From NCBI RefSeq assembly GCF_022865105.1, contig NZ_JAKNYM010000002.1:157501-221500 (forward strand): a stretch of 64,000 nucleotides of DNA, written 5' to 3'. The notes under the pieces were generated by a model. That model was not told the DNA's origin and ran no database searches. It worked only from the letters and a program-made list of their open reading frames with translations. The number at the start of each line of letters is the position of its first letter. Position 1 is the first letter of the stretch. A program made the translations under genes and the position numbers. Positions 52,327 to 55,575 of the stretch are shown piece by piece. Origin of the DNA: Sphingomicrobium astaxanthinifaciens (lineage in GTDB: Bacteria > Pseudomonadota > Alphaproteobacteria > Sphingomonadales > Sphingomonadaceae).

Positions 52327-55300
52327 TCAGGCGATCCGCGCGGTGTCCGCCGAGCCCGCCGCACGCCGGGTGGCGATCGCCTCGAGCGTGGCGCTCGCGG
52401 CGCGGTTGAGCCGCTCGAGCACACGCTGGCCCGCGGCGACGTCGCCGGCCTCCTCGAGCGCGGTCGCCAGCGCAGCGATGCGGCGCGCGCCCGCGCTGCC
52501 TGCGGCGCCCTTGAGCGCGTGTGCCTCCTTCGCGACCCTCGCCAGATCGGCGTCGGCCAGCGCGCCGGCGATCTGGTCGGGGCGCAGTTCGAGCTCGACC
52601 GCCATCAGCCCGAGCAAATTGTCGAACCGCTTGGCCCCCGACGCCCGTTCGAGCTCGGCCAGCCGTTCCTCGTCGAGCAGCGGCTCCTGCCCCGCCTCGG
52701 GTGCCTGCGGCGGCCCGCCCCCCTCCGGCGCGGTCACCGCAGCGCGCGTCGCCGGCCCCGACGAGGCGCCGTCGGGCGGCGCGGACGACGCGCTGGCGGA
52801 GTCCCCCGGCCCCGGCGACCCGGCGGCGGGATCCCCCGGTGCGGACGCGTGCGCCAGCATCGGTGCCGCCTCGCGCCCGCCACCCGCCGCGACGACATCG
52901 TCGCGCTCGCGGCCCGCGCGCTGGTCGGCGAGCTGCTCGAGCGTGCGGTAGAGCGCGTCGCGGTCGATCGGCTTGGTCAGGAAGGCGTCGAGCCCGACAT
53001 TGTCATAGAAGCGCCGCCGCTCGGGCGCGGCATCGGCCGACAGCGCGATCACCGGAGCGCGGCCCCGCCGTCCCCCGAGCGCGCGGATCTGGCGGGTCGC
53101 CGCGATCCCGTCCATCTCGGGCATCTGCATGTCCATGACTACCGCGTCGAAGCGCCCGCGCCGCATCGCCTCGACCGCCGCGCGGCCGTTGGCGACGCAG
53201 CTCACCTCGTGTCCGCGCGCGGTCAGCATCGAGCGGATCAGCATCTGGTTGACCGCATTGTCCTCCGCGACCAGCACGCGCAGCGGGCGCGCGGCGATGC
53301 GCGCGGGCGCCGCCCCCTCGCTCGCCTGCTCCGGCTCCTCGCCGACCGGGAGCGCGAGTTGCAACGTGAAGGTGCTGCCCTCCCCGGGCTCGCTGTCGAC
53401 CGCGATCTCGCCCCCCATGGCTTGCGCCAGCCGCTGCGCGATCGACAGCCCGAGCCCCGTCCCCGCCCGTTCGCGCCACCGGCTCGCATCGGCCTGCGCG
53501 AAGGGTTCGAACAGCTGCTCCTGCAGCTCGGGCGCGATCCCGATGCCGCTATCGCGCACCGCCACCGTCCATTGCTGTTCGTCGATCCGCGAGCGCCGCG
53601 TCAGGGTGACCACCACTTCGCCCTCGTCGGTGAACTTGATCGCGTTGGAAAGGAGGTTGGCGATGATCTGGCGGAACCGCTGCGCATCGCCGCGGGCCGG
53701 GAGCGGGCGCCCGATATCGGCTTCGAGCCGGAGCCCGATGCCCTTGGCCCGCGCGCCCGGAGCGAACAGCTCGATCGCCTGGCCCTGCGCGTCGCGCTCG
53801 GCCTGCAACGCCAGCCGCGCATGCCGACGCTCGTCGCCGACGCGATAGTCGATCGCACACTCGAAGCTCGACTTGCGCCGGCGCGCCTCGCGCACCGCGT
53901 TGATGAGGATGTGCCGCGCCGTCGGGCCGAGCTGCCGCACGAGCGTGCGCGCCTCGATCATCCGCCCGGGCGCCTTGTGGAGCAGGCGATAGAGCTGGTG
54001 GCTGTGGTCGAACCCTCCGTCGGCGAAAGCGTAGCGCCAGTGCGCCACCCCCGACAGTTCCTCGGCGAGCACCAGCAGCCGGTGGCTGTCGCGCAACTTG
54101 GCCGCGCTCTCGGCCATGAGGTCCTCGGTCAGCTGGCGGCGGTGGATGTCGCGCACGGTGGCGATCATCTCGCGCGGCTGGCCCGAGCGGTGGTAGACGA
54201 GCTTGAACATCGCCTCGACCCAGCGCCATTGCCCGTCGGCGCGGCGAAGCCGGAAGCGCAATTCGGGGGGTTCGGCCCCGACGACGATGTCGGACAAGAG
54301 GCGCGTGAAGACCGGCCAGTCCTGCCCGTGGACGAGCGGGCGGATCGAGGTGTCGCGCAGCGCCTCGGGCGGATGCCCCAGCACGCGCTCGGCCGCCGAG
54401 GAGGCGAACAGCACCCGCCCCTCGAGGTCGAGCCGCAGGATTATGTCGCGGCTGTTCTCGGCGACCAGCCGGTAGAGCCGCTCGCTGCGCGCCAGCGCCT
54501 CGGCGTCGCGCCGCCGCGCGGTGACATCGTCGAGCATGATGAGGAAACCGGTGCAGCGCGCGCCATCGAGCAGCGCGCTGATGTCGATCCGATAGTGGCA
54601 CGTCGCGTCCCCGTCGGGCACGCGCACCTCGAGCGAGGCGTCCTCCTTGGTCACCCGTGCGCGCGACCAGACGAGGTCGAATTGCACCGCATCGTCGGCA
54701 TCGAGCCGGCGACGCTGCCGGTGCTGCTGCTCGCCTCCTATCGGCTGCCGCTCCCCGGGCTCGTCGGGGCGATCGCCGGCTGGAGCAAGCAGCGGCATCG
54801 GTCCGGCGACCCGCGACGGTGCCGGGCCCAACGCGGCGATCGGCAGGTCGCGCTCGAGCAGCAGCGGTAGCAGGGCGAGGTGGCCGAGCGAAAAGGCGAA
54901 GAAAGTGGGAATGAAGACCTGCGCCAGCGGGGCGTTCGCGGCCAGCGACAGGGCGGCGGCGGCGAGCAGGCTGGCGAATTGCGTGGCGACGAGCAGCCGG
55001 ACGAGCGGCGCCTGCCCGGGGCGCTCCACCCCGTCGCCCGCATCGTGCCCGTCGAGCGCAGCGATCGCCGCGCGCGCCTCCCCCGCCGCCGCCAGCGCGG
55101 CCGGCGATCCGCGGTCCCCGGCGCGGCGCGCGCCGCGCGGGTCGAGCAGCAGCGCCACCAGCCACGCCTCCCCCGCGACGACCGGACCGAGGAGCCAGCT
55201 CGGCGCCGCGCCCCCCGGGTCGAGCACGGCCGCCACGGCGCCCACCGCGGCGGTGCCGGCGGCGACGCCCACGGTCGCGGCGAGGCCGCGCCAGCGCCCG

Positions 55301-55575
55301 AACTGGACCAGCGCGACGACGAGCAGCGCGCTCGTCGGCCACCACAGCAGTAGCAAGTCGAACCACGCGCCTGCCCACAGGGCCACGACCGCGACCGGCG
55401 CCGCGAGCAGGCCGGCGGCGAGCGCGGTCACGAGCAGCGGCCCGGGGCGCGGGCCGGCAGGGCGGTAACGATCGGCGGTCTCGGAGATGGGGCCTCCTTG
55501 CTGGCAAGGGACGCGCGGCCGACCGCGGCCGCGACGGTCCGCGGCCGCCAGGCGGCACAACTTGATCCGCGACAC
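52327..55575 (-). CDS. Hybrid sensor histidine kinase lacking a DHp (HisKA) domain
   Basis: Up to 1082 residues. About six membrane helices span 46-245, PAS 1 spans 365-478 and PAS 2 spans about 500-600. The HATPase domain (628-745) has N box 'NLLSNAIKFTDEG', G1 'DSGIGI' and G2 'GTGLGLSI'. The receiver is 764-885 with Asp815 in 'VVMDMQMPEMDG'. An Ala/Pro/Ser linker leads to an Hpt domain with His1019 in 'AHALKG'. No H-box or 'HE.RTP' helix exists: PAS 2 runs straight into the HATPase linker at residues 598-606. The start is doubtful: GTG at 55575 has a weak site, while AAGGAGG at 55493-55499 stands four bases before an in-frame ATC. Confidence 0.88.
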   Translation of the reverse strand: MSRIKLCRLAAADRRGRGRPRVPCQQGGPISETADRYRPAGPRPGPLLVTALAAGLLAAPVAVVALWAGAWFDLLLLWWPTSALLVVALVQFGRWRGLAATVGVAAGTAAVGAVAAVLDPGGAAPSWLLGPVVAGEAWLVALLLDPRGARRAGDRGSPAALAAAGEARAAIAALDGHDAGDGVERPGQAPLVRLLVATQFASLLAAAALSLAANAPLAQVFIPTFFAFSLGHLALLPLLLERDLPIAALGPAPSRVAGPMPLLAPAGDRPDEPGERQPIGGEQQHRQRRRLDADDAVQFDLVWSRARVTKEDASLEVRVPDGDATCHYRIDISALLDGARCTGFLIMLDDVTARRRDAEALARSERLYRLVAENSRDIILRLDLEGRVLFASSAAERVLGHPPEALRDTSIRPLVHGQDWPVFTRLLSDIVVGAEPPELRFRLRRADGQWRWVEAMFKLVYHRSGQPREMIATVRDIHRRQLTEDLMAESAAKLRDSHRLLVLAEELSGVAHWRYAFADGGFDHSHQLYRLLHKAPGRMIEARTLVRQLGPTARHILINAVREARRRKSSFECAIDYRVGDERRHARLALQAERDAQGQAIELFAPGARAKGIGLRLEADIGRPLPARGDAQRFRQIIANLLSNAIKFTDEGEVVVTLTRRSRIDEQQWTVAVRDSGIGIAPELQEQLFEPFAQADASRWRERAGTGLGLSIAQRLAQAMGGEIAVDSEPGEGSTFTLQLALPVGEEPEQASEGAAPARIAARPLRVLVAEDNAVNQMLIRSMLTARGHEVSCVANGRAAVEAMRRGRFDAVVMDMQMPEMDGIAATRQIRALGGRRGRAPVIALSADAAPERRRFYDNVGLDAFLTKPIDRDALYRTLEQLADQRAGRERDDVVAAGGGREAAPMLAHASAPGDPAAGSPGPGDSASASSAPPDGASSGPATRAAVTAPEGGGPPQAPEAGQEPLLDEERLAELERASGAKRFDNLLGLMAVELELRPDQIAGALADADLARVAKEAHALKGAAGSAGARRIAALATALEEAGDVAAGQRVLERLNRAASATLEAIATRRAAGSADTARIA

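Follow-up and report, generated by a model that had tools for sequence, protein, structure and literature searches.

Autophosphorylation of a histidine kinase requires the histidine and the dimer bundle of the DHp domain, which also docks receivers. In ArcB, a reverse phosphorelay through the Hpt and receiver (REC) domains drains phosphate from ArcA~P (PMC3364231). In the split kinase of Rhodobacter sphaeroides, CheA4 phosphorylates CheA3 (PMC3591291), and DivL is a histidine kinase that has no autokinase function yet is functional (PMC4211667). The ChrS pseudokinase (ChrS-Ala245fs) keeps its DHp and has lost the ATPase domain, and further removal of the DHp ended its benefit (PMC9491836). The titles and abstracts searched contain no matching hybrid case among kinases lacking DHp. 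The window analyzed here, the whole stretch of 64,000 nucleotides, carries such a gene next to dnaN: the HisKA/DHp domain with its H-box histidine is absent, the HATPase boxes and the receiver aspartate are present, and an Hpt domain with its histidine is also found, as in ArcB-like tripartite kinases.

The open reading frame, Pfam matches and inspection of residues agree with the preliminary description of a 1082-residue kinase with intact N, G1 and G2 boxes, a receiver aspartate (Asp815) and an Hpt histidine (His1019), the features of which are collected in Table 1. The ATP-binding residues are kept (Asn640/Asn644, Asp675-Ser-Gly-Ile-Gly, Phe689 and a GTGLGL run from residue 705), as are Asp772, Ser846 and Lys868 of the receiver. 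The open frame is in itself weak evidence, because long frames remain open on either strand of the GC-rich DNA here; a frame of 851 aa is open on the strand opposite the gene. AlphaFold2, applied to residues 482-1082, models HATPase, REC and the greater part of Hpt with confidence, and the score is below 50 across much of PAS2, which only two alignment rows cover; the closest PDB structures to the model are known histidine kinases, such as ShkA and GacS. Compared with the orthologues, the linker between receiver and Hpt (window about 52690-52911, reverse strand) is far longer and has a higher content of Pro, Ala, Gly and Ser.

Table 1. Features of the DHp-less hybrid kinase gene, in window coordinates.
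Feature	Position	Strand	Basis or remark
DHp-less hybrid histidine kinase gene	52327..55575	reverse	1082 aa, GTG start, open frame; dnaN-side orthologues in the relative G002 and nine other congeners
N-terminal membrane region (residues 1-287) and tail of truncated first PAS (288-345)	54541..55575	reverse	
PAS1, residues 346-480	54136..54540	reverse	Pfam PAS families; family HMM E=5e-55
PAS2, residues 481-598, C-terminal end cut	53782..54135	reverse	Family HMM E=1.5e-45
Deletion junction, residues 598-607, GQAIELFAPG	53755..53784	reverse	G002 DNA alignment; constant spacing in nine relatives
HATPase_c, residues 629-742, N/G1/F/G2 boxes intact	53350..53691	reverse	Pfam E=6e-31 and residues
Receiver domain, residues 767-879, Asp815	52939..53277	reverse	Pfam E=1e-22 and residues
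Hpt domain, residues 991-1062, His1019	52390..52605	reverse	Pfam E=2e-9 and residues

No HisKA is matched by Pfam in the 1082-aa protein at E-values up to 10, and a search of the whole genome with PF00512 places none at this gene. When the gene is aligned at the DNA level with its orthologue in the closest relative, G002, a single in-frame gap of 348 bp is seen in the window, between CAGGGCCAGG and CGATCGAGCTG, so that the missing HisKA of the preliminary description is confirmed. The two proteins are 71% identical on either side of residue 600. The G002 orthologue lies beside dnaN and recF, with an MFS transporter and kynureninase upstream of it, and is syntenic with the window gene; its segment opposite the gap codes for a HisKA domain with FLATMSHEIRTPMTGVIG (SHEIRTP), assigned by Pfam to residues 601-665. 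The HisKA domain of the orthologue thus sits at the point of the junction, and this alignment supports the earlier proposal of a deletion that fused the end of the PAC segment to the linker following HisKA. More is missing than the DHp/HisKA region, for which a normal length of about 65-100 residues was given: the 116 absent codons take in the final strand of the PAC, the exit helix, HisKA in full and the linker. The motif QAIELFAPG at the join corresponds to residues 599-607 (codons 53755-53781, with GTG as residue 1), one position beyond the 598-606 first given.

The spacing between the anchors flanking this segment is identical in all nine relatives aligned (G002 and eight further). HisKA is present in the five orthologues run through Pfam, and the H-box is kept in all ten other dnaN-adjacent orthologues found in the genus. 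In a wider scan of homologues, an H-box-like motif is found in 139 matches and is absent in three, one of which ends at a contig end, the other two being other kinases of the same genome. Transfer of HisKA to another site can be rejected, because the deleted segment is not found elsewhere in the genome, where the best match (38%) is part of another kinase. The loss of the phosphoacceptor domain is real, in-frame and specific to this lineage among the genomes searched.

With regard to the cause of the deletion, the LFG of the PAC segment and the LF of the linker are exactly 116 codons apart in most relatives. In that register, 4-9 consecutive bases (CTGTTCG or nearly so) are common to both ends in seven of the nine relatives, and in several of them this sharing exceeds that in nearly all other registers. 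An origin by slippage or recombination between short repeats is therefore plausible, as suggested previously for the ELF-coding stretches, yet unproven, because only two bases are shared in this register in G002.

Candidates for a cryptic or replacement phosphoacceptor were considered and rejected. Residues 481-598 correspond to PAS2 of the orthologues (E=1.5e-45), in which a separate HisKA follows, and a DHp hidden within PAS2 is rejected on these grounds. The SHQ motif of PAS2, which was paired with the H-box in one alignment, is judged to be misaligned. His498, which is Asn in the outgroups, is found where PAS2 begins, more than 100 residues ahead of HATPase, and has no H-box around it.

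The N-terminal part of the protein is also unusual. It contains six hydrophobic stretches and no Pfam match to MASE1, a domain present in four of the five orthologues run through Pfam, G002 being the one without a match, and the truncated first PAS lacks its N-terminal half. The N-terminal sensor and first PAS are probably a second lesion in the same gene. A frameshift behind this odd N-terminus is rejected, as the other two frames contain no PAS-like sequence and third-position GC is high throughout.

The remaining protein appears to be under normal constraint. Compared with G002, dN/dS is 0.24-0.30 in the PAS, HATPase and receiver domains and 0.47 in Hpt, the least conserved domain. At sites of the linker and HATPase that are fixed in three outgroups, private changes number three in the window lineage vs seven in that of G002, so conserved HATPase sites do not show more changes peculiar to the window than expected from G002. 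A rough bound derived from these counts limits neutral evolution to no more than about 10-40% of the branch after the split from G002, the value varying with the omega assumed. The retention of catalytic residues together with normal constraint in HATPase, receiver and Hpt suggests that either the deletion is recent or the remaining protein is still selected; because no relaxed constraint is seen in HATPase, the protein may be kept by selection.

The states of the locus were compared in dnaN neighbourhoods from part of the genus. They comprise ten kinases with HisKA, the DHp-less form of the window, a PAS-PAS-REC form (G004), an Hpt-like form only (G008) and empty loci. A HATPase-receiver probe finds no kinase beside dnaN in eleven genomes, G008 being counted among them, and domain HMMs find no trace in ten; together with the two reduced forms, twelve other congeners thus have no full gene there. 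In G004, a dnaN-adjacent ORF of 476 aa (L142 1294-2721, reverse strand) encodes PAS-PAS-REC without HisKA, HATPase or Hpt. This ORF, at the orthologous locus, appears to have lost the kinase core in frame in a separate event, and the conserved Thr/Ser of its receiver appears to be Leu. The Hpt-like ORF of 141 aa beside dnaN in G008 (L137 7354-7776, forward strand) is recognized by the family HMM (E about 1e-6), has no NCBIfam match and, as read by eye, contains no His in the aligned H-box. The states are scattered over a dnaN tree, a single-gene tree that is midpoint-rooted and of mixed support. Because clades that are apart from each other carry the full form at this one locus, the simplest reading of these sequences is that the gene has repeatedly been trimmed or lost in the genus. 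Both this erosion across the locus and the probable lesion in the N-terminus and first PAS were overlooked in the preliminary description.

Taken together, the window gene probably encodes an autokinase-dead, eroding hybrid kinase left by one in-frame deletion of DHp, and any residual activity would most plausibly proceed through REC and Hpt. The ancestor was presumably a hybrid histidine kinase of the order MASE1-PAS-PAS-PAS-HisKA-HATPase-REC-Hpt, in which a single 348-bp in-frame deletion, in the lineage of the window, joined late PAS2 to the linker before HATPase. The whole DHp, that is, the phosphoacceptor histidine, the dimer bundle and the receiver-docking surface, was removed by this event. 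ATP binding would be retained, but no DHp histidine would be available in cis, which would leave the protein dead as an autokinase. Because these three elements are gone, autophosphorylation is not expected on established histidine-kinase biochemistry, from which it also follows, as originally proposed, that phosphorylation would occur in trans or not at all. The receiver (Asp815) and Hpt (His1019) could draw phosphate off a response regulator and then lose it through hydrolysis, or could instead pass on phosphate received from another kinase; such a sink or relay is possible because ArcB drains ArcA~P through these two domains. The allele would mark an early stage in the decay of this sensor, which is repeatedly trimmed or lost in the genus. 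Early gene erosion with kinase function gone is most likely, and a maintained receiver-Hpt drain has a smaller chance.

That smaller chance corresponds to a DHp-less protein that selection maintains for draining or relaying phosphate, in which PAS signals and ATP binding would gate the REC-Hpt half, and this half would remove phosphate from a response regulator or transfer it to one. To our knowledge, there is no way to couple the ATPase to REC without a DHp, which speaks against such gating. The preservation of catalytic residues in HATPase, REC and Hpt, the conserved sites without excess changes, the reading frame preserved across the deletion and the dephosphorylation of ArcA~P by ArcB through Hpt and REC (PMC3364231) are all consistent with selection for this role, but a recent deletion accounts equally well for the constraint, Hpt is the least conserved domain, and the dnaN locus is empty or reduced in twelve other congeners. 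Selection for a drain or relay is therefore considered unlikely, and less likely again is the wider proposal that PAS-HATPase-REC-Hpt is a natural protein, created when DHp was removed in frame, and is selected as an ATP- and signal-gated phosphate drain or relay, the forms in G004 and G008 then being further repurposed. It is very improbable that the deletion stems from misassembly or is present in only part of the sequenced population: the species is represented by the assembled sequence of one genome, and short repeats occur at the deletion ends in relatives, but the gap is exactly in frame, and assembly collapse is unlikely because the assembly consists of two contigs, with completeness 100 and contamination 0.02, and no collapsible long repeat is found at the gap ends. 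Least probable of all is a kinase acting in trans, its HATPase phosphorylating the DHp or Hpt histidine of another protein as CheA4 does CheA3 (PMC3591291), since, although HATPase is intact, split kinases are known and the genome offers 15 HisKA-like and 4 Hpt domains as candidate targets, CheA4 retains its dimerization domain, the DHp dimer bundle is gone from the window protein and the neighbouring genes encode no partner.

In the window gene, a hybrid kinase appears to have been caught soon after losing its defining domain, with its downstream parts intact. The locus in the genus, with full, DHp-less, PAS-PAS-REC, Hpt-like-only and empty states, forms a natural series for the decay of a multidomain sensor, and it also bears on the question of whether receiver and Hpt can function by themselves. 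An active protein would provide a ready-made test of phosphorelay regulation by an ATPase domain without DHp.

The nearest counterparts of the window gene are the dnaN-adjacent kinases of its congeners (G002, G001, G034, G017, G003 and others), which are orthologous and syntenic and have the same PAS, HATPase, REC and Hpt domains; they differ in that all ten have HisKA and four of five have MASE1 by Pfam, whereas Pfam recognizes neither in the window gene. The order HATPase-REC-Hpt, the receiver aspartate and the Hpt histidine are common to the window protein and the tripartite kinases ArcB, BarA and TorS, and in NCBIfam it scores best against TorS, BarA and ArcB, in each case far under the cut-off. 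Unlike these kinases, it has no HisKA/DHp and hence no site of autophosphorylation. CheA4 is similar in bearing an ATPase without a phosphoacceptor domain of its own, but it keeps a dimerization domain and has a known partner; a dimerization domain of its own is not left in the window protein, whose DHp dimer bundle was encoded by part of the 116 deleted codons. In DivL, the DHp is retained and carries a Tyr. Two other kinases of the same genome depart from the usual H-box: one has Tyr in place of the H-box histidine (MSYELRTPL; L007, G000 C2:1345527-1346282), as in DivL, and the other, a 439-aa frame, has DDTLRTPLTR at the H-box, with no histidine and a sub-threshold HisKA score (L008, G000 C2:1223346-1223960). 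DivL and ChrS have no autokinase function, as is likely also for the window protein, but both retain DHp. In comparison with ChrS the loss is the opposite one: DHp is kept and the ATPase lost in ChrS, whereas in the window protein DHp is lost and the ATPase is kept.
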